From Rhizophagus irregularis (lineage: Eukaryota > Glomeromycota > Glomeromycetes > Glomerales > Glomeraceae): 64,000 nt of DNA. Made by a program: the position numbers and the translations under genes. Within the stretch, counting starts at the first letter, position 1. The number at the start of each line of letters is the position of its first letter. The stretch lies in assembly GCF_026210795.1 (NCBI RefSeq), contig NC_089442.1, forward strand, positions 3,562,501 to 3,626,500. The letters run 5' to 3'. Under the pieces are notes generated by a model. The model was not told where the DNA came from and did not search any database. It was given only the letters and a program-made list of their open reading frames with translations. Shown piece by piece: positions 18,976 through 35,409 of this stretch.

Positions 18976-19512
18976 CACAGGTTGAAAAATGAAAAATCAG
19001 GCACCAATCGGTCACCAATCAGGTAGCTGATTGGTGACTGATTGGTGACTGATTAGTGCCTGATTGGCATTTTCGCCAAATACCGTCACCAATCAGGCAG
19101 TTTGCTAACTTTTGATCCAGTGATCAGAAAAGGATGAAATATAGCTCATTGGAATCGTCTCAATATGACGAATCTAATGGTAGTAAAATCGCATTTCTAG
19201 GATTAATACATGATGAGAAATTAAGTAAAATATAAAAATAAAAATGTATCATTTATATTTTATTTAATTTATTATTAACTATTAATTCTAGAGATGCGAT
19301 TTTACTACCATTAGATTCGTCTTGTTGAAACAATTCCAATGAGCTATATTTCATTCTTTTTTGATCACTGGATCAAAAGTTAGCAAACTGCCTGATTGGT
19401 GACGTATTTGGCGAAAATGTCCAATCAGTCACCAATCGGTCACCAATCAGGTACCTGATTGGTGACCGATTGGCGACTGATTGATGCCTGATTTTTCACT
19501 TTTAGACCTGTG
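18976..19512. mobile_element. Long-hairpin MITE with CACCAATCAG-type subterminal repeats
   Basis: Almost the whole element is an inverted repeat with ~250-bp arms and a centre near 19245. The ends are CACAGGTTGAAAAATGAAAA and, inverted, CACAGGTCTAAAAGTGAAAA. Next come clusters of ATTGGTGACTG / CACCAATC, then the hairpin module also found elsewhere in the window. The target duplication is ambiguous (ACA, or ACACAG overlapping the ends), so the superfamily is uncertain. It interrupts the LINE RNase H domain. Confidence 0.75.
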
Positions 19513-20194
19513 ACACAGATTCTCAAAATTGTATCAACACATTTCAACGAGTCAACAACGCTTTAACGTAAAACTGGAAAATTCTGAAACTTCCTAACCA
19601 TCTTGTGTGACGTTGTATTAAACAACTAATCAACAAAAACCATTTAGAAGTCCATTTCAACAAAGTAAAGCTCACTCCAATAATTTTTATAATGATCTAG
19701 CAGACGCCAAAGCAAAAAAAGGCCTCAACGTCCTACCATTACTCATCAACCCTAAATTTATTGAAAACGAGATTCTGTGGCCCTTATGGGATTCTATTGG
19801 CATCATTGATCGAGATACCCGAAAGTTCGCTAAATCGATCACGGAAGCAAGAACTTTCGACTCCTTTACACACAACTCACCATTACAAGATATGTTTGCT
19901 TATCATAACATCTCAGAAATTAATTGGCCACTCACTCAGTCCTGGATCAATTATAACGACGTTTGCAGCACTAATAAATCAAAAAAAGACGCTTTCAAAC
20001 TAAAATGCCTCAATCACATTTTGCCGTGTGGAGAAATACTTACTTCACACTATTCATCATTATATTCCAATATACAGACTTCCATCAAATGTCCGTTCTG
20101 TCAGAATGAAATGATACTAACTCTCACTTAGGTTTCTGTCAACCCATTTTACCATCCCTTAACAACATCGTGAAAGAATTCAAAGATACTTTAA
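19513..20194 (+). pseudogene. LINE RNase H C-terminus and zinc motif
   Basis: It continues the domain from 18740-18975. Near 19675 the frame reads HSNNFYNDLADAKAKKGL, equivalent to the HS.N..ND.AD..AK box of LINE RNase H. Downstream, CLNHILPCGEIL and CPFCQNE near 20020-20105 form the usual C-terminal zinc motif. Stops near 19590-19615 and frameshifts show decay. The frame is broken again by the Polinton-like insertion after 20194, and the last part reappears at 35209-35409. Confidence 0.65.
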
Positions 20195-20685
20195 GTCGTC
20201 GGGCTGGTAGTGTGCCTCGCTACGCTCATCCCACCTTGGCCTCAATGGCCTCGCAGTACCTACATCCCCTCCGTGGGGCAGGTTTACCTGCCACAGTACC
20301 ATGGTCTGCCACGGTATTTTTCCACTTATTTTTTTTTCTACATTTTTTCTTATATATAACTTACTACAACTAACATGGCAACTATGGCAGACTACTTAAA
20401 AATGGAATAAAAACGCGAATAAAGCCGAAATCAAACAGAATCTCCTGCCATAGTACCTGCCATAGTACGAAAAATCTTATAATAATACTATGGCAGCCTT
20501 AGTCAGCCCCTCAGACCCCAAAACCCGATTCACGCTATGATTACCCTTTATATACTCACCTAGACCCTCCAAGTATGATTCCCTATGTCCTGAACTATGG
20601 CACCCGAACTATGGCACCCGAACTACGACCACTTACCCCCGTCAGAAAAAATATATTCGGCAATTGAAGATTAGGTAACTATAAA
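20195..20685 (+). repeat. Left terminal inverted repeat of the Polinton-like element
   Basis: It matches 34719-35208 inverted over ~490 bp with few differences. It contains repeated ACTATGGCA / CCTGCCATAGTA motifs, a tandem TGGCACCCGAACTA, and at its inner end the sequence CGGCAATTGAAGATTAGGTA, which serves as upstream region for the helicase gene. Confidence 0.9.
20664..20673 (+). promoter_or_regulatory. TTGAAGAT motif upstream of the helicase gene
   Basis: TTGAAGATTA, 49 nt before the ATG at 20713 and preceded by AAAAAATATATTCGG. One of at least seven similarly placed motifs in the element. Confidence 0.45.
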
Positions 20686-20712
20686 TTAGTACTCGATTTG
20701 ATAGAACAAAAA

Positions 20713-23187
20713 ATGGCCGCTCAAGTTCCAGCAATCTTTAACCCCAACAACCGTTTCTTCTACGATGACCTTCTTAAAAAATGTGTAGGTACACACACAA
20801 AAGAAAGCGTCAATTCAGCAATCTTGGCTTCTGTGGCTTTCATCACCACAAAATCCGGCATGTGGATTAGAAAAAAGAAGGCTTACAATGGAAGCATATA
20901 CTTCAAGTTCGCCGCAGATCTTAAGGGGATTTCTACTAAGCACAAGGTAATTATTCGGTCAGATACCGGAGAAGACAGTGACGTGACCACATCCACCAAA
21001 TTAAAGGATCTTCTTCTCCAAGCATCAATCGCAAAGATCTGTTATACAGATGTAAACTTCATGCCTTATCCCCCAAATGCGCCAAAGTATAATCCTGAAT
21101 TCTTCAATCTCTTCCTAGATTTCAGGACCCAACCCGCTAAGCGCATCAAACCAAACCTAGTTAATCCAATCATCCGACACGTTCATGAGGTATGGTGTGC
21201 AGAGGACAAGCAATTAACTATATACATCCTCAACTGGCTCGCATTTCTAATTCAAAATCCAGACAAAAAACCCGGTACAGCAATTATCATGCGCAGTCCC
21301 CCCAGATGTGGTAAGAATATCTTAACCGATTTTATCGGAGAACGTATTCTCGGCCGTGAAAATTTCCTCTCCACTACTCGTCTTGAAGATGTAATGGGAA
21401 GGTTCAATGTGGCTGTTCGTGCCAAAAAACTTATCATCCTCAATGAATGCGATATGTCAGGCAAGGAATGGCACCGGCAAACAACCAACTCAAGAGTTTA
21501 ATCACCGAGCCTTACATCTCTATTGAGGAAAAGGGGATAGATGTGAAGGTTATTGATGACTTTGCTGGCTACATGATCCTCAGTAATCATGCTATGCCAA
21601 TCCGCATAGAAATGGGAGATGAAAGATTTGTAGCTCTCAACGTCTCAGCCAAATATAAGGGCAATAGAGAATACTTCGGTTCTCTCGTAAAAGTATTAGA
21701 AAATCCGGATACAGCCAGTTCCTTCATGTCCTATCTACTTAGCCGAGACTTAACTGGCTTCAATCCCCGATCTATTCCTGATACTCAAATGAAACGGGAG
21801 TTAATTGAAGCAAGTATCCCGAATCCCCAGCGTTTTATACAATATTACCTTGAAATGATGTGGCCCGACAATTGCGACACACTTGAAATCCCGTATACAA
21901 ATTTCTATAGCACTTACCAGAATTGGTGCAGTGAGAAGGGTGAAAACAAAACACTAAGTGACAATAAATTCGGTATGGAGATTAAACAATTCGCCCCTAA
22001 AATGCGTGTAAGCCGCTCAGGTACCCGAATAAACTATTACATACTAGATAAAGCAAAAATCGTGGAGAATTTTAGTAAAGTAATCCAAGATGTACAAGAC
22101 GTACAGGAAGCACCAGTAGAGGGAGTAGAGTTAGTTGCCGAGAAACCCGCTGAGGAAAAACCCGCTGAGAAAAAACCCGAACCTGCTGAGGAAAAACCCA
22201 CCGAGAAAAAACCCGAACCCGCTGAGGAAAAACCCGCTGAGAAAAACCCGAACCCGCTGAGGAAAAACCTGCACCTGTAATTCGCAAGACTCCTCCACCG
22301 CTTCCACCCAAGCCTGACCACTTAAAAGAACGTCCACAAGAGTTAAGAAAAGAACAACCAGATCCCGATGAAGATACTAATGAGTCAAACACCGATAAAT
22401 CTATAGATAACTTTTCAGATTGTTATCTATCTGACGAGAACCTGACCAAGAAGAACCTATCCCCGAGCCAGATAACTACGACGTTTTAGATGACTTGCTA
22501 TCTGACTCAGATTTTACAACTGTGAACCCAGCTCCTGAACAACAACCCGAGTATCCCGCAGAATCTTCTGCATCTGTCACTAAGCCTGACCCAGAACCGG
22601 CTTCTGAAGAGCAATTTATCCCAGAACCTGACACAGAACCAGAAGTTGACCGGGATCCTGAACCAAAGGAAGGCACTCGAGCGCACTGGGCTTGGCAAGA
22701 AAGACATTGATGGGATCGCAAACCATGGGTTAAAAATTTAAAGGACCAGGTCTTCAATGATCTCTACAATACAGGTAAGGAATTATGGGCCAAGTACCAA
22801 GATGCGTCAGACGAATATGACTGGGAAATACTCGCGTTTGAAATAGAGGAATGTCCCACAACGCGTATTGAGGACGAGTACCAGTACTACCTTATGGAGG
22901 TAGTAGACCGCTTCAAGGACTGGATTGAATATAATGGATACTTACCTAAAATACCTAGCCGTAAAGAACTCGCAGATTTAATAAGAATATACAAGGAGAA
23001 TCGTAATGCTGAGATTATTCCCACCCCCTCTGGTTATGAAACTATGAGGGCAGATAAGGGTAAAGTGCGAGAGATCCCCGAGGAACGTCCAAAAACTGAT
23101 ATGGAACGTGAATGGGAGGCCGCCAATGGAATCATCGATGACTGGGACGAAGAGGATACTGAGGGCGCTATCAACGACATATTGTAA
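20713..23187 (+). pseudogene. D5-like SF3 helicase with Pro/Glu-rich tail (frameshifted)
   Basis: Replicative helicase of the element. The start is the ATG at 20713 (MAAQVPAIFNPNNRFFYDD). The P-loop is SPPRCGKN (about residue 200, lacking the usual first Gly). The Walker B equivalent is LIILNECD (~240), then ITEPY..IEEKG and ILSNHAMPIRIE as in the DUF5906/D5 family, and a C-terminal winged-helix-like region (TNFYSTYQNW...). A one-base loss near 21480 moves the frame. The following Glu-Lys-Pro repeat (22135-22270) loses one A in an A-run near 22235 and shifts again, with a further shift near 22440. An in-frame TGA lies at 22708-22710. The tail's last part (22711-23187) is acidic and unrecognised, and it could be a separate gene. 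As it stands the protein cannot be made intact. Confidence 0.75.
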
Positions 23188-23245
23188 GCGCTATTTGAGA
23201 TTATTTCTTTTTTTTTCGTATATATATAGAAAGATATTATTTATA

Positions 23246-23255
23246 GTTGAAGACA
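23246..23255 (+). promoter_or_regulatory. TTGAAGA motif upstream of PolB
   Basis: GTTGAAGACA, 26 nt before the ATG at 23272. A T-tract (CTTTTTTTTTCG, ~23209) and TATATATA lie just upstream. Confidence 0.4.
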
Positions 23256-23271
23256 AATCATATACATAAAA

Positions 23272-25123
23272 ATGCAATACTCAAGAATTGCCCGCACTTT
23301 ACCAACACGATTTGACATCAAGGAACTTCAGTATTCCGGTGCTCGCTTTTCCAGAGGAGCTATCGCCAGACTCGGTCAGACTCTCCAGACGCGATTTCCA
23401 GATAGAAAGTTCCAGATCCTACTTCCCTATGAAAACTGGAAACCCGGTGGATGGACATCAGGAAACCAACCAGCCAGCCTCTTTTCACTATTACCATTAT
23501 GATGAAGCACAACTACCGGATGACGCAGACCCTGATTATTTTGAACGATTCATAATTTATGCAAGAGATAGTCCACCGGCCGCAGGAGGATGCAATAGGG
23601 AGCTAAATGATTGCCTGTATGAATGCCTAAAAAATATTTACGGCACATTCTCTAAAATGCCAAAGTCAATCGAAAAGCCCGAGTATATCAAAAAGGCATT
23701 AGGTCTCAATCGCGATGCTCCCATCCCAGTTTCATGCATGGACAAGGTTGAACAACTCGCAGGAAGTCTCGCAATTAATATTGTGGGGGACATTACCCGA
23801 ATCTCTAAGAGTAAGTCCGATAGACGTGCGACTCTCATCCTATCAGAAGGCCATTACTCCCTCACGTTAAATCCTGGAAGACTCCACCCCAGTAAAATAG
23901 ATAAAAAGCGTAATTTACCCATTGTATACCATGAAGATGGGACCAATAATGTAGTCACAATATACAACGGCAAAACAGTTAAGTCTTGCACAATTGCGCA
24001 GTTTCAAAAAACTAAGAATTCCAAAAGTTCTTTCATCCCCGTCGAGAAAAACCGTAAGACTGGAGTATATGAAACTCTTGAAGAAGCATATCAGAGAATC
24101 CACGAGGAGCGGAATTCCTTTCTACAGGAGACAAAGAAGTTCGGTTTAGGAATCGACTTATCATACCATAACTGGTCTTACAAAAGAACGGCTCTCTGGT
24201 TATTCGAACGATTAAGTGTAGGGATTCCAGCCAATGATCCTCTTGACCCGATAGAAGCGGAATGGTTAAGTGATGCAATGATGGGAGGATTAATCTGGGC
24301 AGATAACGAGTGGAAGGGCTATGGAAGACAGTATGACGCAACAAGTTTATACCCGAGTATCCAACAATCAAACGTGAACTTTCCAATCAGACGGAGTAAA
24401 TTTCAGACACTTAATGACTTTGTCGACCACAGGAGTTATGCCTTGTATGGATTATTCCGTGCCAAAATAAGTGGGAATAATATTCTCTTCCGACAGAATA
24501 AAAGGGAAATCTATACATTCATCGACTTACAACGAGCAAAAAAACTTGGTCTCAATATACAGTTAATACAGGATGGGAAGCCAAATGCATTGATATATGA
24601 TAGAGAAGCGAGAATCCCTGGGACCATAATATTCGGTGAGTATGTACACTTCCTCTTCAAAATTAAAAACCAGGGTGGCATAGCTGGCCGCGTGGCAAAG
24701 CGAGTCCTCAACACATTATGGGGAGCATTATGCCAGAGGAAGCGTAATTACAAGACACTCACCACAGATCAAACAGACCCATTTACATTTCCAGAGGGCC
24801 ATACACTCGACTCTATCATACCAGTAGGATCTGACCAGTGGCGATTCCAGTTTACAAACCCGGGTAATCCCTTCAAAGGTGAGTATCCCAGGATCGCCCC
24901 ATTCTTATTAGCACGTGGTCGCAAAATCACATCTGAGGCAATTCAACTATACAAGGATAAAGTACGACGTATCCATACAGACGGATTTATTTTAGAAGAA
25001 CAGCCAGATAGCCCCGCGCTTTTCACTTGTTCAGAGAATGCAGATACGACTCTAAAGACTTTCAAGTTTGAAACCGCGGGATACTGCCATGTGAAAAATG
25101 CGAACAAGGTTATCTGGACATGA
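23272..25123 (+). pseudogene. polB: Family-B DNA polymerase with OTU-like N-terminal region (one frameshift)
   Basis: Copies the element's DNA. The ATG at 23272 opens MQYSRIARTLPTRFDIKEL and runs to about 23475, where one extra T (in CTCTTTTCAC) moves the reading frame to the long frame ending at 25123. Together they make about 617 residues. Polymerase motif A is YDATSLYPSIQ (~residue 353), motif B KRVLNTLWGALC (~477) and motif C RIHTDGFIL (~568). There is no 3'-5' exonuclease domain, so it is shorter than typical Polinton polymerases. Between residues ~100 and 210, NDCLYECLKNIYG and EGHYSLTLNPGR resemble the catalytic Cys and His of OTU-type cysteine proteases; this assignment is inference. 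The upstream motif supports the 23272 start. Confidence 0.82.
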
Positions 25124-25186
25124 TTGCTAGGGACCGGTATGTATATTTTTTACTGACATATCGTGATGGCATAATTGAATAAACCT

Positions 25187-25390
25187 ATGGGATATGTAAT
25201 CTTACGAGATACCCAAATGCAAAACACCGACGGATTAGGTAGACAAGACGATGAAAGTTTCCACGCGTGGGCTAAGCGCATTCAGAATGCTGTGCAATAT
25301 TATGAGACTTGTAGTAGAATAGGTTTTCATAGGCGGCTACCTTATCCAAGGTCTCGTCAAGCTGTATATGCTTTATATTGTGCACATTAG
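25187..25390 (+). CDS. Small hypothetical protein downstream of PolB
   Basis: About 67 residues from the ATG at 25187 (MGYVILRDTQMQNTDGLGRQ). It lies in the same frame as PolB but after three stops. Its end overlaps the next ORF by 23 nt. The two may be one protein with a one-base shift near 25370, since the C-terminal SRQAVYALYC leads naturally into the zinc-finger-like start of the next ORF. Family not recognised. Confidence 0.4.
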   Translation: MGYVILRDTQMQNTDGLGRQDDESFHAWAKRIQNAVQYYETCSRIGFHRRLPYPRSRQAVYALYCAH

Positions 25391-25712
25391 GAGAATAGTA
25401 TCACGACTACCAAATAGGTGGTACTGTACCTACTGTAAATCTTTTATTGATCGCGGATGGGGAGCTGACGCTTTCATGGATCAAGCGGTGCGACTACATT
25501 TATATAGTTGCCCAAAGCATTTTAATTTCGACTATTATACTCATCATGCTGAAATGATCCAGAATGCCTTTAGGAGATATATAGAAAGAAGGAACAATAA
25601 AGCGGCTAGGATAATCCAGAAAGTCGCTATCCCCTGGTTATATAGACCAGACTCTCCATTGATGCAAAAGGCCGAGCGACGCTTCTACTGTCTTGCAGTA
25701 TCCCAAGTGTAA
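25368..25712 (+). CDS. Zinc-finger-like and IQ-like small protein
   Basis: 114 codons. WYCTYCKSFIDRG followed by LHLYSCPKH could form a C2-HC/CCCH zinc site (about residues 18-50). A basic helical part follows with IQNAFRRYIERRN and ARIIQKVAIPWLYRP, which resemble IQ-type helices found in many Rhizophagus and nucleocytoplasmic virus proteins. The likely true start is uncertain because the reading frame may join the preceding ORF. A TATTTATTTTTTCTC tract follows the stop. Function unknown. Confidence 0.45.
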   Translation: MLYIVHIRRIVSRLPNRWYCTYCKSFIDRGWGADAFMDQAVRLHLYSCPKHFNFDYYTHHAEMIQNAFRRYIERRNNKAARIIQKVAIPWLYRPDSPLMQKAERRFYCLAVSQV

Positions 25713-25759
25713 ACCCCGAGGTTCATATTTATTTTTTCTCATTCGAATGAACAGGTAAC

Positions 25760-25769
25760 TGAAGATTTA
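25760..25769 (+). promoter_or_regulatory. TGAAGATTTA motif
   Basis: TGAAGATTTA, about 36 nt before the ATG at 25795, with TATATTTTTTAC between. Confidence 0.4.
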
Positions 25770-25794
25770 TATTTTTTACAAAGTACAAAGAATC

Positions 25795-26264
25795 ATGTCA
25801 ACATATACCGAATTCGCAAGCATTGTTAACAGCACTGACAGCACTAGTGAGGAGGTTATTTACGAGGCATCGCGCATTCAGCCTAATGTTGTCTCGACGA
25901 AACTGTCCCCAAGATTATCCGCGCATTAAAAGATACTATAGTAATCGCATTAGTATCTGGGTTTAGCAAAACCAGTTACCTCGTCCAGGACCACGTGAAG
26001 TATATCAAGCGAATCCAAACGGCAAATTCTTCTGTATCATATGTGAAGTTCGTGGCCAGAAAACTCTTCCCAGATAATGCGGCATATACTGCTAAAATAG
26101 CAAAAATCTGCGAATCATACAAGAATAAACAAGCTCTCCTAGATAAGCTTGAGGCCCTCTTCGAATTGTATTATAATGCGACTAAGGACTCATCAACCGG
26201 TCCCCCAAAGCGAGCTATTACTAAAAACGAGGCTGAGAAAACCTTAACAGAACTTCTTGCATAA
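25795..26264 (+). pseudogene. Small lysine-rich hypothetical protein (frameshifted)
   Basis: The ATG at 25795 begins MSTYTEFASIVNSTDSTSEE. A one-base shift near 25905-25912 moves to the frame that continues through PKIIRALKDTIVIALVSGF to a stop at 26264. The C-terminal half is helical and basic with no recognised domain. Upstream motif and T-tract are as in its neighbours. The product might be a small DNA-binding or structural protein, but nothing in the sequence proves it. Confidence 0.4.
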
Positions 26265-26340
26265 GCGGCTCCCTGTGGTCCTACGATTCTGTACGAATTT
26301 AGTCTATATTTTTTATCCATGTGTAATAGGCATACAGTAA

Positions 26341-26350
26341 TTGAAGATAG
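26341..26350 (+). promoter_or_regulatory. TTGAAGATA motif upstream of F-box-like gene
   Basis: TTGAAGATAG, 34 nt before the ATG at 26375. A TATATTTTTTATCC tract lies ~35 nt further upstream, after the previous stop. Confidence 0.45.
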
Positions 26351-26374
26351 CTATAGTATAAGTAACATAACATC

Positions 26375-26719
26375 ATGTTGGACCGATTACCAGTAGAAAT
26401 AGTCGAACGCATTGTCGCAAAGATCCCGGATACTGACCTTATTGCAGCGAGTAAGGTAGATAGAATGTGGTGGCAGGAAGTTCGTCGAAAGGCATATAAG
26501 AGGTGGAAAAATTATGCCACTACGATCAGGGATGTGTACTGTGAAATCCGAGCTCTCGGAAAGCATTATGTAAAGAGGGAAATTGACTGGATAACGTTTG
26601 AAGATGTAAACGACCTCTATAAAAGATGGATAAACCGCCTCACCGAGGATCAGCTTTATATTATGGAGAAAATGCTTAGGAATGGGATGGTCGTGACCCC
26701 CAAGAGAGGGAAACCATAG
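26375..26719 (+). CDS. F-box-like protein 1
   Basis: 114 residues. The N-terminus MLDRLPVEIVERIVAKIPD, then DLIAASKVDRMWWQEVRRKA, follows the F-box consensus (LP.E....I......DL...S.V...W......), about residues 2-45. F-box proteins join substrates to SCF ubiquitin ligases. The C-terminal part is a short basic helical region without leucine-rich or WD repeats, so the substrate partner is not apparent. A frame just beyond the stop (TIEHALSEQRWGGDPWRLG, ~26720-26775) may be a lost C-terminus after a frameshift. A second F-box-like gene lies at the other end of the element. Confidence 0.6.
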   Translation: MLDRLPVEIVERIVAKIPDTDLIAASKVDRMWWQEVRRKAYKRWKNYATTIRDVYCEIRALGKHYVKREIDWITFEDVNDLYKRWINRLTEDQLYIMEKMLRNGMVVTPKRGKP

Positions 26720-26775
26720 AGCATGCATTAAGTGAACAAAGATGGGGAGGCGATCCTTGGAGACTGGGAGTGGTA

Positions 26776-27230
26776 TGAATGGACTCAACAGGAGTAAGCA
26801 TTTTGTACTTGACTTTCGTAGGAATTACCCTGCAGAGTCATATTTTTTAGATCCGGCCGGCATTACCGCGTAATCCCGAATTACCGAAAAAGGAAATTTA
26901 TGTTACACAAGATTCCAAACGCATTTTTACCAAAATCGATTTTTTGTGGAACGGGTATCGCCCAAAAAGGAAATGATCTACGTACCACATGAAGTCACGT
27001 GACACTCTACACATTTGTTCAGGGTATCACGTGACATGAACTCCGTTCACATTTTCTGTAATATAATCCATAATTTTTCCATGAATGCTTTTTAGGCCAA
27101 TAATCCAATAACTTATTCATCAGGTATCCTCGTGTTTTGCGACAAGGACTGATGATCATGTAACCTCATCATCAGGCATCCTCGCATTTTTTGACAAGGA
27201 CTGATGACGATGTCACTTGGTTATTGTAAA
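26776..27230. other. Intergenic region with a 44-bp direct repeat
   Basis: Contains a T-tract after the F-box gene (CATATTTTTTAG, ~26840) and two 44-bp direct copies at 27117-27160 and 27169-27212 (core CTCG, TTTT, GACAAGGACTGATGA). TCACGTGA palindromes occur at ~26996 and ~27028. No ORF is seen. It could be a control or replication region of the element, but that is speculation. Confidence 0.4.
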
Positions 27231-27240
27231 TTGAAGATAA
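27231..27240 (+). promoter_or_regulatory. TTGAAGATA motif
   Basis: TTGAAGATAA, 44 nt before the ATG at 27275, in AAATTGAAGATAACAATTAG. Confidence 0.45.
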
Positions 27241-27274
27241 CAATTAGGTATGTAGACACATACAGAAAAAAGAC

Positions 27275-27856
27275 ATGTCATACCCTTATATAACTAATCC
27301 TATAACCGGACGTCCAATCCGTGTTGGTGGAGATACCTTTAATCGAATAGTTATGGAATCCCATGATTATATCGATGGAAGGCTTGTCCGTAGACAAACC
27401 GTACCGCCTCCACCCCAGGAACAACCTGTATATTTAAATACAGATACAGGACGCTATATTCAACACGGTACTAGAACGTATCATAGACTGGTTGAGAGTG
27501 ACTACGAGGTAGTTGAGGACTACTACCTTGTTCATTCTGAAGAGGAGGAGCTTATAGAGGAAATCATCAATGAAACACGCTATAATGAGGAAAATCTTGA
27601 TGGCCAGCGGTTAACTTTCAATAATATACAACAAATCAGAGCCGCTATTCAAGCTGACCAAGATGAATATGATGATTTTATCTTACAGCAGAATACGACT
27701 AACGGGACACCTTCCTCCGGTCCTTCCGGTCATCCACGAACTTTGGAGGACTATGCCCCGAGACTTGCAGAGCTTAATATTGAGTTGTGTAGGGAATGTC
27801 TCATGCTCAGCCCAAGTGACTTAACGGACAAGTTGTGCAAGGACTGCGCTTCCTAA
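27275..27856 (+). CDS. Protein with duplicated NP-x-TGR motif and C-terminal CxxC pair
   Basis: 193 residues. The start TNPITGRPIRVGGDTFNRIV is repeated in a diverged form as LNTDTGRYIQHGTRTYHRLV (~residues 52-72). NPxTGRxIxxGG motifs are known from proteins of nucleocytoplasmic large DNA viruses, where they form small repeated adaptor-like units. The middle is strongly acidic (Glu/Asp-rich, residues 80-135). The end has CRECLML...DKLCKDC, a likely zinc site. The intact ORF and upstream TTGAAGATA motif argue for a real gene. Role unknown; a virion or assembly adaptor is possible but unproven. Confidence 0.55.
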   Translation: MSYPYITNPITGRPIRVGGDTFNRIVMESHDYIDGRLVRRQTVPPPPQEQPVYLNTDTGRYIQHGTRTYHRLVESDYEVVEDYYLVHSEEEELIEEIINETRYNEENLDGQRLTFNNIQQIRAAIQADQDEYDDFILQQNTTNGTPSSGPSGHPRTLEDYAPRLAELNIELCRECLMLSPSDLTDKLCKDCAS

Positions 27857-27947
27857 TGGTCAGTCCTCCGGTCCTCTGGTCTTCCGGTCTTTCCAACGGT
27901 TGATCCCTTAATGCCAGTTATTTTTTTTTTATACAAATGACAGGTAT

Positions 27948-27957
27948 TTAAAGATAA
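27948..27957 (+). promoter_or_regulatory. Weak TTAAAGATA motif
   Basis: TTAAAGATAA followed by CAATATATAAAAAAG, about 70 nt before the ATG at 28018. Diverged from the other copies. Confidence 0.25.
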
Positions 27958-28017
27958 CAATATATAAAAAAGATTGTGAAGGATACTAAGTGAGCGAATA
28001 ATCAAAGAAAGATAGCC

Positions 28018-28233
28018 ATGTCAACATCAATCGTAATAAACCAGTGTCAGAACTGTGGAGTATTCTCTGCAAAAGCGGCATATAGAGGATTATCCAGCGT
28101 GTTGTATAGACAGATTATAAAGAAAATTGGTGACGAGAGTGAACCTTTACAAGCCTTGGGACTTGCCAGGGATAAGTTGGTCCAGATTATCCGTCGGGCA
28201 AATAATGCGGATTTTACGCAATTATTCACATAA
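28018..28233 (+). CDS. Small CxxCG protein, possibly RPB10-like
   Basis: 71 residues. N-terminal INQCQNCGVFS and later EPLQALGLARDKLVQIIRRA with a following Asp are arranged as in RNA polymerase subunit RPB10 (…CFTCG… E.LD.LGL.RYCCRRM…HVD), a family also carried by large DNA viruses. The second Cys pair of RPB10 is absent (DK instead of CC), so zinc binding would be incomplete. This similarity is my own reading of a very short protein and could be chance. The stop is followed after 9 nt by the next start, suggesting co-transcription. Confidence 0.4.
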   Translation: MSTSIVINQCQNCGVFSAKAAYRGLSSVLYRQIIKKIGDESEPLQALGLARDKLVQIIRRANNADFTQLFT

Positions 28234-28242
28234 AGACTAGAT

Positions 28243-28524
28243 ATGAAAATTATAGACAGAGATTCATACGAGGATACTAGGAAGTGGCTTCTTGAACAGC
28301 TTATAGCCATTGGATGTGACAGTGGGGAAATTGCCTTATATCAGTTCTTACGGAATATATACCCGGATGGTATTGACGAACCCTTTACTACATTCTATGA
28401 GAACTATGTAAATCATGTAAGAAATCCGATGACTAAGAACTTTGCTTCTCGAGCCTTAGGAGCTATTGGATTAAAAGCTAGGATGCTACGGATTGACTTC
28501 GAAGGACGTAAAAAAGCGCCATGA
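28243..28524 (+). CDS. Stand-alone winged-helix-like protein (D5 C-terminal type)
   Basis: 93 residues, starting 9 nt after the preceding stop. The C-terminal half, EPFTTFYENYVNHVRNPMTK through ALGAIGLKARMLRIDFEGRK, resembles the winged helix that follows many D5/SF3 helicases, and parallels the region TNFYSTYQNWCSEKGENK in this element's own helicase. It may bind DNA. No catalytic motif is seen. Confidence 0.45.
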   Translation: MKIIDRDSYEDTRKWLLEQLIAIGCDSGEIALYQFLRNIYPDGIDEPFTTFYENYVNHVRNPMTKNFASRALGAIGLKARMLRIDFEGRKKAP

Positions 28525-28581
28525 TTCTTAGGGGGCTTCTGCGAAGAACTCGCGAGATGGGTTGCTAAAGCAACCAGATTC

Positions 28582-29703
28582 TTACAAAATACTATTGATC
28601 CCTACTCGTAATGCTCGACGGTCCATATGACCCTTAGAAAAGATCTGTAAAAGGACCCCGATGCCTTCTATTATTTTTTTATTATCCAAAGGGTGACTAG
28701 ACTTCAGGACTTCATATCGGAAGAATAACTCCTTTACGGTCTCAGATTTTGGAATTTCAGTCTTCGCGGTCCTATCCCGTACTTTTGCTAAGAATTTTTG
28801 GAAGTCTGATCCCAGGGTTTTACCAGATAGTCCGTAGGCTTCCCGAAAGACGTACTTAATCCAGGTATCTGCGTTCTTAGCTATAATACCAGATACGAGG
28901 AGGTGTTTTCTCTCTTTAGGCGATGGATATTCCCGAGCAAACTCAATTAGCTGGGAGGACTTTTTTGCTTCAGCTACAGCTTTCTGGCCATAAGGACTAA
29001 ACTTTGATCGAACTGGGTTCAAACTCGGATCGAACGGAGATTGAACTGAGTTCGAACTAGGATCGAACTGAGATTGATCAGTGATCGAACTGAGACTAGT
29101 ATCCCATCTAACCCGAATGGATAACGGATCGCTCTTGGATCTTCTAAGATCAAACACTACAAATTCACGTTGCAGAGTAAGATCATCAATTACTGGTGCT
29201 AATGACTCTGATTCTTCTGTATATAGGCGGATGATTCTCTTAGTATCGGTCAAACTTCCGTGATCTCCATGTAGGGAAATATAATTCACATTTTCACGAA
29301 TAGCCTTGGGAATGGTAAAGAATCTTAGGGCCACATAAATACATGAAATATTTTTGTGTCGTCCGTGTGTAAAAAATCCAGTGATGAGATCCTGGGTTTT
29401 TTTAGGCACATCCATCAAATCCTCGAAGATTACCACAGTAGCCTGGGTGGAGTTGAAGTCCTTAACATTTGGAATCTCACTATGGGATACTGCGGTAAAC
29501 GGAATTTCTTCTTCTTTGAAAAAATCACGTACGACTGCCCACTTCGGTTCATCGAGGTATCTGCCAACTAGAATTACCGCATCACATAATATGTACCTTT
29601 CGCCATCCTCCTTTGCCTTCTTGTCTCCCATTAACAAATTAATAATCATAGTTGTCTTACCCGAGTCAGAACTTCCTGCTACGGCAAGACGGGGAAAGGC
29701 CAT
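28582..29703 (-). CDS. A32-like packaging ATPase
   Basis: 373 residues. Walker A is GSSDSGKT (residues 10-17), Walker B TVVIFED (~89-95), and downstream the segment LRFFTIPKAIRENVNYISLH matches the conserved arm of FtsK/HerA-type A32 ATPases (…P..iR.N.n…). These enzymes pump the genome into a virus capsid and are a hallmark gene of Polintons and related viruses. Residues ~210-245 hold three imperfect copies of a FDPSxNxVxS-like repeat. The C-terminal ~120 residues are helical and specific to this family. The gene runs opposite to its neighbours and is intact, in contrast to the helicase and polymerase. No TTGAAGAT motif is obvious upstream. Confidence 0.75.
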   Translation of the reverse strand: MAFPRLAVAGSSDSGKTTMIINLLMGDKKAKEDGERYILCDAVILVGRYLDEPKWAVVRDFFKEEEIPFTAVSHSEIPNVKDFNSTQATVVIFEDLMDVPKKTQDLITGFFTHGRHKNISCIYVALRFFTIPKAIRENVNYISLHGDHGSLTDTKRIIRLYTEESESLAPVIDDLTLQREFVVFDLRRSKSDPLSIRVRWDTSLSSITDQSQFDPSSNSVQSPFDPSLNPVRSKFSPYGQKAVAEAKKSSQLIEFAREYPSPKERKHLLVSGIIAKNADTWIKYVFREAYGLSGKTLGSDFQKFLAKVRDRTAKTEIPKSETVKELFFRYEVLKSSHPLDNKKIIEGIGVLLQIFSKGHMDRRALRVGINSIL

Positions 29704-29805
29704 GATGGGGCAAACTCATTACCCTGTCTCGAGTCGGTCGTGTACTCGTCCAAATTGTATACATAAAGATCCATTTGAATTTTATTCTATCTTAGTTTAA
29801 ATACG

Positions 29806-30422
29806 ATGTCGACACCAATTGCAATTTATACTCCTTCAGAGCCTACTGGACCGCCTCCTAGGGATTTGCGTGATATGAATAATATACCATTAGTTGCGGT
29901 AATTAAGGATCTAACAGATTTTTTAACTGTCAGTGATCGCATGGTTGTTAATCGAGATGTACAAAATGCAAACCATCGTCTTAAACATGCTCTTAATTTA
30001 TTAATTCATCGCTGTAGAGAAACATACGAAGAACGCGATATATTAAAAGCGGAACGTGATCGATGCCGAAAAGAACGTGATGAATTACAAGATGAACTCG
30101 AGTTCAAACGGGTTTGTTAGGTCTTACACAAGATGAGCTAAATAACGTACAAGATACTATTACTAGTTTAAAAGCTAATTTGGCTGAATTGGAACGTGAG
30201 TTTGGTGGTATGCGGACGACTAATCGTCGTCTTCAGCAGCAATATAATCTTATGAGAGGAGAACGTAATAGAGCTATAGGTGAACGTAATAGAGCTATAG
30301 GCGAGCGTGATGCAGCACGAAATCGGCTTGTATATGCCAATAATCGGGTTCTTTTTGGAATTCGGACATTGGGACGTCTTAGGAATCGACTTTTCCAACA
30401 AATAGCCGCTCTGCGTATCTAA
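29806..30422 (+). pseudogene. Coiled-coil protein with GERNRAI repeat (one frameshift)
   Basis: The ATG at 29806 opens MSTPIAIYTPSEPTGPPPRD, then a long helical region rich in Arg/Glu (ERDILKAERDRCRKERDELQ) to a stop at 30120. A one-base shift near 30108 leads into the frame ending at 30422, with RLQQQYNLMRGERNRAIGER and a duplicated GERNRAI heptad. The two halves look like one coiled-coil protein of about 205 residues. It ends 5 nt before the Gag-like ORF, so it may be the upstream part of the same transcription unit. Function unknown; a scaffold or N-terminal Gag-like assembly domain is conceivable. Confidence 0.5.
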
Positions 30423-30427
30423 GTACA

Positions 30428-31995
30428 ATGGTTTCGGATCAGACAATTGAACCTTCCTCCACCTCCTCTCAACCATCCACAAAATACGATATGGCTGCCG
30501 TTGGTATAGCTGCCCCTATATTTCATGGTCGGGAAGATGAAGATCTTAATCTTTTTATTGATAACTTTTTAGGGTATATTAATACCGTTGGTATTGATCC
30601 ATTGGACGATGCCGGTACACCTCCGGGTCGGGTGCGAGCGATGGGGATTCTTCGTAGCTGTATGAGAGATGAAGCGGCGAGGTGGTTTGATGCAGAACTT
30701 ACTGGAAAAAATTGGGAACTCTCGAATATTCGGTTAGTGGCTACTGCAAATGGTAGAGCCGGTGCTACTCGCCGAGCGTTCAGAGCTTTAGCTGTTCCCT
30801 GAGGTTGCTAACGAATTACATGTTGGTACTTACTTACCCGGGTCTGATGTTGATGCATATTCAAGGATTTTAGCTAATGCGGCGAGAACCGTTGGAGAAA
30901 CATTTTTCCCATCACGCGCTGATATCGTTAGAACGAATTTTAAAGTTGAAGAGCAGTGGAGGCGTGCGGGCGGACGTCCTACTCATCAACCCGTTAATGG
31001 GTTGGGAAATCATGGAGGTCCATTTAATGCTGCTGTCCAGAATCAACCAATAGTCTTACAGGGGATTCTCCTGGATCAAGCATTTATGCATATGCGTACA
31101 AATTTTCCAACCGTCTGTGGAAGAAAGACTTCAAATACGATTTAGTAACCTTTACCAGGAACAAGGTGAACCTGTTCGATCTTACTATAAGCGAGTTGAG
31201 AGGGCTGGGGATATTGTAGGATATAATCGAATTATGGTTACTGACCAGTTCTATAGAGGACTTTTGCCGGAAAACGTTATTGAAGCTTCCAGAATCGGGG
31301 CGGCACCTCTTAATATATTAATCGATAGATTGAGTGATCTTGAGCGACGAAAGGGCGAAATGTTCTATGGATTACAAAGGCGTCAGGGTATTGAAAAGGC
31401 TAAAAAAGAGGAATTGGCTGGCTATACTCATCCCGTGACTCCACACGAAGGTGCTGTAATACAAAGGTCGACAGACGTTATTACTCAAGAACGATTACAA
31501 GAATTGCTCAAGCGGCACAAGCCGAGAAACTTACCAAGAATTTCCAGGCACAATTTAAACAATTACAAGCATCTAAGCCAGTTCGTAAACCACCGGTCTA
31601 TAGACAACAGATTAAACCTGTTCGGCCAAAGCCACGGCCACGCGTTGTTCAGGATCATCAGGGATCCGCATTGGAATGATGGTTATGTAGATCATGATTT
31701 TGGTGATGACCCTGCTGACCCTGATGTCCCCTGAGTGGACTAGTGAGGATGATCAACATGTTATTGATCTTATTATGGGATATGAGACGTCTAAAAGATT
31801 TCCAAAGAGACTTCAGAAGGCTAAAGATAGACGCGATGATCTGGAATTAGCCCGAGCAATGAGAAACCTCGATCTTAATGATGATGCTATGGATATTGAT
31901 ACTAATACCGCGAGTTTTGATGACTTGAAAATTGTTCCCGATGAGGAAGGTGGTTTTCGGATTTGTGCGGTTCGAAGTACAAAAAAAAAGTAAAC
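30428..31995 (+). pseudogene. Retrotransposon-type Gag protein (frameshifted)
   Basis: The ORF starts MVSDQTIEPSSTSSQPSTKY. IFHGREDEDLNLFIDNFLGY and MRDEAARWFDAELTGK are the typical F.G..ED...F...F / L...A..WF signature of Ty3/gypsy-type Gag capsid domains. Frames shift near 30795 (continuing PEVANELHVGTYLPGSDVDA), near 31110 (continuing to RFSNLYQEQGEPVRSYYKRV, the second Gag helix block), near 31510 and near 31730. A basic Pro/Arg/Lys-rich stretch (~31580-31650) may bind nucleic acid; there is no CCHC knuckle. No reverse transcriptase follows, and the integrase is on the other strand, so this is not a simple LTR retrotransposon. Confidence 0.65.
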
Positions 31996-32713
31996 TCGGA
32001 TAAGGGTGTAAGTATCTCGAAACTTCTTAAATCTGTTCCAAAAAAATCAGTTAAAATGACTCTTATTAAGATTCCTGTGAAGGTTACTAGTAGTAAGCCC
32101 ACACTTATAAAAGCCATCACCAAAAATGATTCATTAAGTTTATTAAGGTCTGCAGATTTTAGAAAATTACTCCGCGAGATTCTTCGGGAAGAATTAAAAT
32201 CTGCTCGTAAAAGTACGGAGATTCCAGAAGACCTAGTTGAGGAAAAACAAGAAGAGGATATCGGGGAAGATGACCCGATGGATATTGACATAGCTCGTTT
32301 GGAGAATACTAAAGATCTTTTAGCGCTGGATGGGGAGGTCAATGGGATAGCAATTCAGTGTTTAGTAGACACTTGTGCTAACGCGTCTTTTATTCAGAGG
32401 GAAGCCGCTGAAGAATTAGGGTTGGATATCGACAAGAGTATTACACATAACATATCCGGCGCTCCGGGTTCTGGTAGGACATTCGGCATGGTAAAAGGTG
32501 TGTCAATCAAACTAACCCCCTGATTGCGTAATCACCGAGAATCTCGCGGTTTTAAGCGATTACAAGCATAGGGAGATTGGATTGAGCCGGACGTGTCTGA
32601 AACGTTACAATTATGATGTCCATGAATCGCGTGAACATATCGCCCTTACTTGTAATGAGAAGAATGTTTTTATCCCGATAGTTTCTGACGTGAATCGAGG
32701 AGACAAAAAATAG
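31963..32713 (+). pseudogene. Retropepsin-like aspartic protease domain with DTC in place of DTG
   Basis: It follows the Gag-like region with overlapping frames. After a basic linker and acidic stretch, IAIQCLVDTCANASFIQREA (~32350-32405) matches the flap-proximal active site of retropepsins, normally (L/V)DTGA. The Gly is Cys here. A downstream stretch ITHNISGAPGSGRTFGMVKG fits the second half of the fold. A one-base loss near 32520 interrupts the frame; the continuing frame ends at a TAG at 32711-32713, 14 nt from the end of the opposing integrase gene. It is either a degraded protease or a non-catalytic domain. Confidence 0.55.
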
Positions 32714-32727
32714 GGAATATTTATTTT

Positions 32728-33747
32728 TTATTCCCAAAACTTGCGGATTAAGGCAGGGACATCTTCCTCCAACCGGTCAGCGGGTTCCCAAGTGGCTTCG
32801 GTATCTGGGTATCATTCCCACTTGACTAGATACTGGTCTTGACCCTTCCCGATGCGATGCCGGAATATCCGCTCAGGTACAAATCTTTCGGGTTGCCCTC
32901 TTATCACGGAGTCAGGTGGGGGATGTTCATTTTCTGGAACAATCTGCAACTCTTTTCGGGTGTACGCACATCTGGATACACCTAGACGCCCGTGTGGTCC
33001 ATCAAGAAGATACGTAGGAGGCTGTTCGGGTGAGAGGATCATTTTTTTGATGACACGGATATTGGGATTCCATCTTATGTCACCTGTACGAAATTTTCCA
33101 TGGAGTTTATTCCCGAGTACTGAAATAGGTTCGTCTAACTTGACTTGGACATGTGTTCCTTCAGAGAGAAGTTCCGTCTTTTTTGACACTTTGGGTGACC
33201 CTGTCGGAATGTCTGGGGGATTTCTCTGCCAGATTTCATCTATTTTATTAACTACATCACGGAAATCTTCTGACCATTTCACGGATGTCACCCCGGTCTT
33301 CAACTCCTGTGCCACCATTCGTTTTAGGAGAGGCTCCTGGATCGCTTGGATAGCTCGTTCAGCGTATGATTGCTGTTTGTGTCTTCCCGGCTCTCCAAAC
33401 CTCATCATCACCCCTAGGCTGTTCAGGAAAAAATCACGTACCTGATCATTGGTGAATTCTGATCCGGAGTCTGTCTCCATTCGATGTATTGGTGGCTTAA
33501 TGCGATTTCTTCTGTAGATTTTAACAAATCCATTGAGAACCCTATTTGCAGTCTTATCCTTTAGGGGTTCTGCGTCGACTCGTTTACCTGCGACTTCCAC
33601 CACTATGAGGAAATAGTGGAATCCTTTGGGGTCGACTGGCATTTCTGCGAGATCTGCCTGATGCGTCGCATTTGGTTTCCATACAACTACTCGTGGACGC
33701 TCTGATGACTTTCCTTTAGGGGCTTTTTGTATAGGTTGTAGTGCTCC
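32728..33747 (-). pseudogene. DDE (rve) integrase with C-terminal chromodomain
   Basis: Inserts the element into chromosomal DNA. The intact stretch 33642-32812 holds the core: QADLAEM (first Asp, just upstream of the first ATG near 33660), HRMETDSGSEFTND (second Asp) and KQQSYAERAIQ (Glu, 36 residues after the second Asp). The C-terminus begins a chromodomain (RHRIGKGQDQYLVKWE), cut by a TGA after KWE. The same frame continues YPDTEATWEPADRLEED to a TAA at 32728-32730, completing the chromodomain. The open frame extends upstream to 33747 without an ATG, so the N-terminal zinc-binding region is missing or shifted. Chromodomain integrases are usual in Polintons. The gene converges on the retropepsin-like gene. 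Confidence 0.8.
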
Positions 33748-33861
33748 TCACCTTTAGAATTCGTGCTGGTACTCTGGAGAGATTGTAGTATTTGTAGTAA
33801 TTCTCTAATTGTGACATATTACGACAAATTAAAGGAAAGATTTCGGACTTCAAATTTTAAA

Positions 33862-34182
33862 ATGACACGATTTTACTGCCTAAAGTGTAAGAAGGAAACC
33901 GAGACTGCTAGTGAAATACAAGATATGACCACAAATGGGCGTTACCGGCTGCATGGTGATTGTACAGTTTGTGGTATGCATAAGAATACTTTTACTGGGA
34001 TAGACTGGGTTATCAAAAAGAAAACCAAGGAGAAGAAAAAAGAAACTGCGGCTAAAAGACATCAGACGGCGTACAATCGGCAATGCAAAAAACTCGGGCA
34101 GAAAATCTTAGATTCTGATGACACGTGTAAGCAGTGTATTGATAAATGCCTTAAGGAGGCAAAAAAGAGGAAGACGGATTAG
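33862..34182 (+). CDS. DUF5679-like zinc-ribbon protein
   Basis: The ATG at 33862 (MTRFYCLKCKKETE) is preferred over the upstream 33763 start because the domain begins there. YCLKCKKETE, TTNGRYRLHGDCTVCG and a following Phe form the two CxxC halves of the DUF5679 zinc ribbon known from phages, viruses and Polinton-type elements. The C-terminus is Lys/Arg-rich with a further CKQC..KC group. Probably a small nucleic-acid-binding protein. The ORF is intact. Confidence 0.65.
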   Translation: MTRFYCLKCKKETETASEIQDMTTNGRYRLHGDCTVCGMHKNTFTGIDWVIKKKTKEKKKETAAKRHQTAYNRQCKKLGQKILDSDDTCKQCIDKCLKEAKKRKTD

Positions 34183-34191
34183 TACCGCCTT

Positions 34192-34707
34192 TTAAAAGTA
34201 TTCCTCATCATCTGAGTCATCGAGAGATACCTTTCCATCATCTGATTCATCATCCGAGTCGTCAGGAGTGCGACCTTCCTTAAGCAATTGGATGTTGTAC
34301 GTTATTTGAGTCCATTTCTCCCAGTCGGACTCTTGCATTATAAAGCCGCATCTGAGGAGTGCTCTTTCTATTACTACCATCCCTGCAAACCTGGTGTATT
34401 TTTTCTGATCGGCTTCATTGAAATTGTCAATGGCTTCCTTGTAGTAGTCTACTGCCTGTTTGTATACCTCCTCGGCTTCTTTATGCCGCTTCCACAACTC
34501 GGCTTTACAACAGTTATACCAGAGTCTGTTAATCTTGAGATGTTTTCCGAATTCTTTAACCGGAAGGTTTCTGACCATCTCTGCTACTATGTCCGGGTCA
34601 TTGAGGGGTGATGCCCGAATTTGGATCCATTTACGGATTCCATAGATGTCTACAAGATCAAGCCCGAGGTCTTCGGCAAGAGAAGTGGTGGCGTGTAAGT
34701 TTATCAT
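34192..34707 (-). CDS. F-box-like protein 2
   Basis: 171 residues. The segment DPDIVAEMVRNLPVKEFGKH, then LKINRLWYNCCKAELWKR, resembles the second half of an F-box and parallels residues 15-50 of the F-box-like protein at 26375-26719. The C-terminus is highly acidic (DDSDDESDDGKVSLDDSDDE). It starts inside the edge of the right TIR, with a TTGAAGAT motif 31 nt upstream, and converges on the zinc-ribbon gene with a 9-nt gap. The F-box assignment is inference from helix spacing and Trp/Leu positions. Confidence 0.5.
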   Translation of the reverse strand: MINLHATTSLAEDLGLDLVDIYGIRKWIQIRASPLNDPDIVAEMVRNLPVKEFGKHLKINRLWYNCCKAELWKRHKEAEEVYKQAVDYYKEAIDNFNEADQKKYTRFAGMVVIERALLRCGFIMQESDWEKWTQITYNIQLLKEGRTPDDSDDESDDGKVSLDDSDDEEYF

Positions 34708-34718
34708 TGTATGTTACT

Positions 34719-35208
34719 TATAGTTACCTAATCTTCAATTGCCGAATATATTTTTTCTGACGGGGGTAAGTGGTCATAGTTCGGGTGCCATAGTTCGGGT
34801 GCCATAGTTCAGGACATAGGGAATCATACTTGGAGGATCTAGGTGAGTATATAAAGGGTAATCATAGCGTGAATCGGGTTTTGGGGTCTGAGGGGCTGAC
34901 TAAGGCTGCCATAGTATTATTATAAGATTTTTCGTACTATGGCAGGTACTATGGCAGGAGATTCTGTTTGATTTCGGCTTTATTCGCGTTTTTATTCCAT
35001 TTTTAAGTAGTCTGCCATAGTTGCCATAGTTGTCATAGTAAGTTATATATAAGAAAAAATGTAGAAAAAAAAATAAGTGGAAAAATACCGTGGCAGACCA
35101 TGGTACTGTGGCAGGTAAACCTGCCCCACGGAGGGGAATGTAGGTACTGCGAGGCCATTGAGGCCGAGGTGGGATGAGCGTAGCGAGGCACACTACCAGC
35201 CCGACAAC
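34719..35208 (-). repeat. Right terminal inverted repeat of the Polinton-like element
   Basis: Inverted copy of 20195-20685. Its inner end supplies the same TTGAAGAT-containing upstream region to the minus-strand F-box-like gene that starts at 34707, so each TIR drives one gene inward. Confidence 0.9.
34729..34738 (-). promoter_or_regulatory. TTGAAGAT motif in the right TIR
   Basis: Inverted copy of the motif at 20664. On the minus strand it reads TTGAAGATTA, 31 nt before the ATG at 34707. Confidence 0.45.
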
Positions 35209-35409
35209 TTTAAACGTCAGATTACTTTACACGCCGACTTGAGGAGGATGACATATTTTGTATCCCAAGACCTCAACGCGTCATGTCTTTTCACGCTAAT
35301 TACGAACGACAAACACCCGATTTACTTACTCATACACAATTTCGTTCCCCAAGAATTAGTAGATCTGATACAGAAATACACGAATAGTTACAAGATCACA
35401 CGCAATTAG
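35209..35409 (+). pseudogene. LINE ORF2 extreme C-terminus, beyond the Polinton-like insertion
   Basis: Right of the element the frame reads FKRQITLHADLRRMTYFVSQ and on to a stop at 35409. It continues the LINE broken at 20194, with the repeated ACTTTAA at the junction and a one-base phase difference consistent with decay. Confidence 0.55.

Follow-up and report, generated by a model that had tools for sequence, protein, structure and literature searches.

The window analysed here is a stretch of 64,000 nucleotides of the symbiotic fungus Rhizophagus irregularis (assembly GCF_026210795.1, contig NC_089442.1; C14:3562501-3626500 in the contig numbering used below), and at positions 20195 to 35208 it contains what is probably a degenerate self-synthesising DNA transposon of Polinton/Maverick type with a Ty3/gypsy-related Gag and a retropepsin as its structural module. 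As anatomy, this swap of the capsid-protease module is well supported: the Gag-retropepsin block is mobile with the unit, being found inside the terminal inverted repeats (TIRs) and target-site duplications (TSDs) of many copies, and several diverged lineages retain Gag next to a related integrase.

The genome searched comprised 32 contigs (146.7 Mb), and the Gag of another copy of the element was up to 99% identical to R. irregularis protein records. An inverted-repeat search of the window identified paired arms at 20190-20684 and 34718-35213 (95-98% complementary, in two blocks), and the element ends were set at 20195 and 35208 by reading against 10 other TIR-paired copies; the span originally predicted from the letters of the window proved exact, with TIR arms and a TTTAA duplication on both sides. 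A perfect 5-bp TSD was read by eye in 11/11 TIR-paired copies of the window family (TTTAA, GCTAA, TCTGA, ACAGA, TTACC, ATATC, ACTTT, TCCAT, TCAAC, ACTAC and CCTCT), while the TIR termini mostly consist of one trinucleotide doubled, (GTC)2//(GAC)2. At least 61 matches to the TIR were obtained in the genome (a lower bound, from 40 of 268 candidates scored), and the long TIRs of the prediction are present both as paired arms in the window and as copies elsewhere.

Homology of the Gag protein

No informative Pfam match was obtained for the window-family Gag, either in the window or in an open copy, and its identity therefore rests on its relatives. An hhalign comparison of one profile pair, Ty3 Gag (28 blocks) against the transposon Gag (42 blocks), gave 97.4% (E 1.4e-11) and 97.0% in the converse direction, while reversed alignments gave 0.3% and alignments of the unrelated ATPase and integrase gave 0.2% or less. 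Among 39 related proteins, Pfam matches at E<=1 were found to Retrotrans_gag in 18 (best 1.5e-5) and to zf-CCHC in 19 (best 0.0031). These results support the identification of Gag as a Ty3/gypsy-type homologue, as had been predicted, and the Gag and protease motifs quoted in that prediction were verified in the window.

In the transposon Gags the capsid domain is split into two halves by an extra 78-131 residues (approximately 100) in 38 of 39 aligned rows, the insertion having been mostly lost in the other (P0104), and its W and G-x-P positions are conserved in at least 90% of rows. The family was identified, from protein records alone, in Rhizophagus, Entrophospora, Paraglomus, Gigaspora and Diversispora (37 proteins), and a protease motif was found, by pattern only, in several of the Entrophospora, Paraglomus and Gigaspora Gag-type proteins. 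The shared insertion suggests either that Gag was captured once, by an ancestor of these fungi, or that it spread later. The reverse transcriptase label PF00078 was carried by none of the 37 Gag relatives and by none of the 120 proteins listed of 194 (candidates of up to ~940 aa), compared with 17 of 48 Ty3 Gags. The knuckle region gave E values above 1 against retroviral nucleocapsid proteins in the PDB, and no relatives were detected in the viral contigs searched with a Gag (locus L014), a polymerase (L017) and an ATPase (L011) of these elements.

Gag is open at 519-537 aa in other copies and measures 476-519 aa in the three better copies described below. In other lineages a region resembling the coiled-coil open reading frame (ORF), which precedes Gag in the window, forms the N-terminal part of the Gag protein itself, and in L014, a copy of the 12.1-kb lineage described below, one frame of 1075 aa runs from the coiled coil through Gag and the knuckle motif to the protease (Pfam matches below cut-off); no canonical slippery site was found within the overlap of the coiled-coil and Gag frames.

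The protease and its junction with Gag

The protease beside Gag matched aspartyl protease families (in the window PF13650, 6.8e-9, Pfam), which bears out the predicted retropepsin-like gene; its active site reads DTC. Against the PDB, the protease profile matched a Ty3 Gag-Pol chain (5.8e-4), with stronger matches to DDI1 proteases. The ratio of non-synonymous to synonymous substitution (dN/dS), calculated from one pair with one copy per subfamily (L011 and L045), was 0.10 for the protease (144 codons), 0.10 for the ATPase and 0.07 for the integrase; the protease value suggests a functioning enzyme, and the estimates show purifying selection on both Gag and protease in the subfamily pair compared.

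In L011 the Gag and protease frames share 46 nt. This overlap closes with A AAA AAG in phase, and the protease is read in the -1 frame, an arrangement at an A-run which resembles retroviral -1 frameshifting. Among the seven copies compared (the window, L009, L010, L011, L012, L018 and L045), the run is nine A long in five, including the window, and shorter in L009 (eight) and L010 (seven). These differences put the protease in different frames, and homopolymer sequencing errors could mimic them; in L010, Gag and protease form a single open frame of 737 aa.

Linkage of Gag, ATPase and integrase in the genome

The genome was searched for Gag, ATPase and integrase, and neighbouring matches were merged into places; counts are lower bounds, with 150 of 299 Gag candidates and 109 of 371 ATPase candidates scored. 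At 96 of 136 Gag places an ATPase was found upstream and an integrase downstream, both antisense to Gag, while the chance level of this layout was 26 in 20000 random positions (some contig sizes being approximate). The rest comprised 9 places with the ATPase only, 6 with the integrase only and 25 with neither. Gag was present within 8 kb at 107/107 scored ATPase places and at 104/116 places of window-type integrases.

The 25 places with neither neighbour are mostly distant Gags of other lineages. In nine such loci that were read, the integrase of these elements adjoins Gag in 9/9, and eight, L021 being the exception, also match polymerase, protease or ATPase. Some queries were derived from the same nine loci, and the integrase calls therefore rest on the Pfam rve family, which was above cut-off in L013 and L014, as in the window copy and the copy on C15, and just below it in L016. 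Wider searches outside the window family located a related integrase within 12 kb of 67/89 Gag places. Related integrase places with no Gag match within 12 kb include 13/13 copies of one integrase group (C21:3126505, C8:5074408, C16:59689 and ten similar sites; ORFs of ~340-400 aa, mostly 400). Linkage, which had been proposed as a check, holds over many copies and several lineages of this genome, and the candidate explanation of Gag as a single-copy feature was rejected, as Gag occurs at many places genome-wide.

Gene content of the window copy and of better copies

The features of the window copy are as follows (ORF coordinates are window positions; "ORF in copies" denotes reading frames identified in other copies).

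20190..20194, no strand: left 5-bp TSD, TTTAA (copy comparison)
20195..20684, no strand: left TIR, first letters GTCGTCGGGC (inverted-repeat search and copy comparison)
20713..23184, plus: superfamily 3 (SF3; D5-like) helicase whose tail is disordered, frame changes in window copy (Pfam)
23272..25120, plus: short-type family-B DNA polymerase (PolB), OTU-like motif (by pattern), one frame change (Pfam)
25187..25709, plus: 174-aa ORF following the polymerase, one frame change (ORF in copies)
25795..26261, plus: 156-aa ORF without family assignment, one frame change (ORF in copies)
26375..26775, plus: 134-aa ORF, one frame change, F-box match weak and under cut-off (Pfam)
27275..27853, plus: 194-aa ORF, weak 2C_adapt motif below cut-off (Pfam)
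28018..28551, plus: 183-aa ORF without family assignment, two stops in window copy (ORF in copies)
28585..29774, minus: A32/terminase-like packaging ATPase, one frame change close to the start (Pfam, PHROG)
29806..30506, plus: coiled-coil ORF (ORF, copy comparison)
30428..31990, plus: Gag with capsid-like domain, three frame changes in window copy (relatives, hhalign)
31981..31993, plus: nine A in a row, followed by G and the stop codon of Gag; protease frame -1 relative to Gag (letters)
32056..32710, plus: retropepsin-like protease, DTC for DTG, one frame change (Pfam)
32731..33817, minus: rve integrase carrying a chromodomain at its C terminus, frame changes and one stop (Pfam)
33862..34179, plus: DUF5679 protein (Pfam)
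34195..34707, minus: 171-aa ORF without family assignment (ORF in copies)
34718..35208, no strand: right TIR (inverted-repeat search and copy comparison)
35209..35213, no strand: right 5-bp TSD, TTTAA (copy comparison)

Frame changes disrupt the helicase, polymerase, coiled-coil ORF, Gag, protease, ATPase, integrase and other genes of the window copy, a point absent from the original prediction, and open versions of several of these were found elsewhere. Three better copies of the window family were read, on C15 (L043, L011), on C24 (L045, L046) and, for its left part, on C3 (L044). Their plan consists of an SF3 helicase of 825-887 aa, a PolB that is open only in the C24 copy (626 aa), the other two being broken, and small ORFs of 134-194 aa followed by the ATPase on the opposite strand (396-407 aa), the coiled-coil protein (235-265 aa), Gag and protease, and, at the right, the integrase on the opposite strand (363 aa), DUF5679 and an ORF of 145-171 aa.

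The predicted SF3 helicase, family-B polymerase, A32-like ATPase and chromodomain integrase were all matched by Pfam in the window and in open copies. The helicase halves in the window matched DUF5906 at 1.2e-7 and, marginally below cut-off, at 1.1e-5; Pox_D5 was matched at 9e-6, and an open copy matched DUF5906 at 3.8e-19. DNA_pol_B_2 was matched by the window polymerase at 5.9e-6 (25.9 bits, cut-off 25.8) and by the C24 copy at 31.0 bits. The ATPase matched Pox_A32 at 7.6e-8 in the window and at 1.2e-10 in an open copy, which also matched a PHROG terminase (3.1e-8). The window integrase matched rve at 1.8e-8 with its chromodomain cut, while an open copy has the complete chromodomain (8.8e-18). 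The PolB of the window lineage is short, and all its exonuclease-like pattern matches lie behind motif A and therefore do not represent an exonuclease domain.

Synonymous divergence (dS) between L011/L043 and L045/L046 was uneven, at 0.10-0.15 in the helicase and the 156-aa ORF and 0.44-0.96 from the 183-aa ORF to DUF5679, and looks as if two halves of the element had been swapped between subfamilies. Shortly upstream of the element, at window positions 18976-19512, an inverted repeat with 261-nt arms (83% complementary, 15 nt apart) was observed.

Modules searched for and not found

Neither a jelly-roll capsid family nor an adenovirus/Ulp1-type cysteine protease was matched by Pfam among the ORFs scanned (window, open copies and distant loci; for the capsid, a genome-wide search was not made), in agreement with the original prediction, which had recognised neither. 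Gag aside, no unassigned ORF above ~270 aa was present in the window-family copies read, which leaves no room for a double-jelly-roll capsid in this family. The ORFs of 134-194 aa gave no jelly-roll match by sequence comparison, a method that would allow for a small single jelly roll, so that the jelly-roll fold named beforehand as a sign against the proposal did not appear among the unassigned ORFs at this level. No reverse transcriptase was found by Pfam in the window ORFs scanned. Long terminal repeats (LTRs) around the block had also been named as such a sign, and an ungapped search of the window for direct repeats of at least 40 nt identified none flanking the block at 29.8-32.7 kb. A nested retrotransposon was rejected on the lack of such LTR-like repeats together with the recurrence of the same layout in dozens of copies.

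Distant lineages

Outside the window family, related integrases adjoin Gag in three distant lineages. One of these is represented by a 12.1-kb element at C9:1631362-1643453 (L056/L057) with 438-bp TIRs that are 100% identical and termini AGTAGT...ACTACT, that is (AGT)2//(ACT)2. It is inserted in a Ty3 gag gene, with gag halves on both flanks and the TSD CAATA; TSDs in this family are of 5 bp in two of three copies and of 7 bp in the third. Its genes encode an integrase, a coiled coil-Gag-zinc-knuckle protein, a protease and a putative polymerase. The PolB call rests on exonuclease-like and YTDTDS-type motifs (by pattern), and the C-terminal part of the polymerase (L017 query) gave no Pfam and no PDB match. 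Gag-protease thus appears to reside within elements of two replication set-ups, a short PolB plus an SF3 helicase in the window lineage and, in the 12.1-kb lineage, a polymerase with an exonuclease-like motif.

When searched with one Ty3 reverse transcriptase query (tblastn), the distant elements contained no match, the sole match being the query's own Ty3 element outside the TIRs. In a TIR test at six distant loci, no TIRs were found between the outer flanks on C3, C8, C30 and C10 and a 70% match was found on C5; TIRs on C8 and C10 were later found using the C9 TIR. The L016 lineage has ORFs of 305 and 295 aa without family assignment. An ORF of 267 aa in the 12.1-kb lineage (L015:6247-7047) consists of two similar halves and appears TBP-like by eye, with no Pfam support.

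Proposed mechanism and alternative explanations

In the mechanism proposed, PolB would copy the linear element DNA, Gag would assemble a shell round the element nucleic acid, the protease would cut the Gag precursor and so mature the shell, the A32-type ATPase, where present, would load DNA, and the integrase would insert the element DNA; the whole scheme, packaging of DNA by Gag included, is inferred. Tentatively, these elements may belong to one Glomeromycotina lineage, either of virus-like transposons or of DNA viruses proper, with a particle of retroviral-type Gag, retropepsin maturation and double-stranded DNA (dsDNA) copied and integrated by Polinton machinery, a chimera of two virus realms which has persisted and diversified in these fungi. 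The original prediction held that an ancestor had swapped its shell and maturation genes for a Gag-protease pair; anatomy, homology and linkage uphold the pair in that place, and do not extend to a Gag shell, its DNA content or the question whether loss preceded gain.

A number of observations weigh against a Gag-packaged DNA element. No ATPase was found in the 12.1-kb lineage (tblastn and ORF inspection), nor a helicase, and packaging there therefore cannot rest on that enzyme. Compared by sequence with the PDB, the capsid part of Gag gave nothing significant (PEG10, E 0.28), a pattern search found no CCHC motif in window-family Gags, and the dN/dS values of Gag (0.40) and the coiled coil (0.57), from the same single pair, indicate looser constraint than on the enzymes. 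The protease active site is DTC in the window family, compared with DTG/DSG in retropepsins and, by pattern, DTG or DSG in other lineages. Copies without the block had been named as evidence against the proposal: every scored ATPase place has its Gag, while 12/116 window-type integrase places have no Gag match within 8 kb, because of which shortened or Gag-less copies may exist, and 46/113 other related integrase places have none within 12 kb. Given the lineage in which no ATPase was found, and as the proposal is known from sequence, confidence in it is moderate.

The observations on the ATPase and the CCHC motif would also suit a capsid-less DNA transposon that forms no virion and uses Gag and protease for DNA binding, nuclear import, evasion of silencing or RNA transport between nuclei. 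Such forms exist, since nine Polintons without capsid genes also lack the protease and ATPase (PMC4028283), and one lineage here keeps Gag-protease with no ATPase found. Against this, a packaging-type ATPase adjoins 105/136 Gag places (96 with and 9 without the integrase) and the dN/dS of the protease suggests a working enzyme, and we regard this role as rather unlikely, though a serious contender. The related integrases without a nearby Gag could alternatively point to a jelly-roll capsid supplied by another element or virus, with Gag as an extra gene; no such capsid was present among the Pfam-scanned ORFs, the genome as a whole not having been searched, and we consider this very improbable.

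Gag-derived proteins such as Arc form particles carrying RNA, and by analogy the particles could hold element RNA instead of DNA. The Gag homology and the zf-CCHC matches among the related proteins favour such a cargo, but no reverse transcriptase was found in the unit, and the integrase and polymerase work on DNA, making this improbable. That the block is a retrotransposon fragment which landed in one copy might be expected from the abundance of Retrotrans_gag, with at least 150 genome matches (150 scored of 306 candidates). It deserves hardly any credence, being already contradicted by the linkage counts: the block occupies the same position in dozens of copies and lies beside related integrases in other lineages, no LTR-like direct repeats were found around it, and it shows purifying selection in the pair compared.

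Relation to known systems

The window element shares TIRs, TSDs, PolB, an rve integrase and a packaging-type ATPase with Polintons/Mavericks (Polintoviricetes), and differs in that Gag and retropepsin stand where Polintons have jelly-roll capsids and a Ulp1-type protease. TSDs in the present elements are mostly of 5 bp, compared with 6 bp in Polintons; TSDs of 5-6 bp are given for Polinton-like viruses (PMC12220804). The (AGT)2//(ACT)2 termini reported for vertebrate Mavericks (PMC8097293) recur in the 12.1-kb lineage, the window family having its own doubled trinucleotide instead. Not all known Polintons encode a capsid, and as the capsid-less ones described lack the ATPase too, its retention here without a jelly-roll capsid is notable (PMC4028283). 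Mavirus has a short PolB plus a separate SF3 helicase (PMC11071308), as does the window lineage, in which the absence of the exonuclease was judged by motifs only; unlike maviruses (virophages), the window element has no jelly-roll capsid or vUlp1 match.

Ginger DNA transposons carry a Gypsy-like integrase between TIRs, but Ginger1 measures 2.6-7 kb with 4-bp TSDs, and no set of PolB, ATPase and Gag is mentioned in the available text (PMC2836005). With Ty3/gypsy LTR retrotransposons the window element has in common Gag capsid homology, a retropepsin-like protease, an rve integrase and the Gag/protease overlap at an A-run, and differs from them in having TIRs rather than LTRs, no reverse transcriptase found, an integrase on the opposite strand and the Gag insertion of ~100 aa. 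In bidnaviruses PolB is likewise joined to a foreign capsid, which there derives from parvoviruses. The combination of a protein-primed PolB with a foreign capsid in that group provides a precedent (PMC4061559). In the text available from two papers on R. irregularis transposons, Maverick is named solely as a class (PMC8647823, PMC11075540). No description of a Gag-bearing Polinton was found in the open PMC literature, a scope which excludes subscription papers and most preprints.

Virus realms are defined by capsid genes, and the findings suggest that this element may have exchanged one virus architecture for another. An element uniting Polinton replication genes with a Gag of Ortervirales type would show that it is possible for a dsDNA lineage to exchange its shell-and-maturation module for a retroviral one, and would bear on the ability of retroviral-type shells to contain dsDNA. 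As the fungus is a symbiont that can be cultured, and its genome carries many copies along with open reading frames, direct testing is possible.

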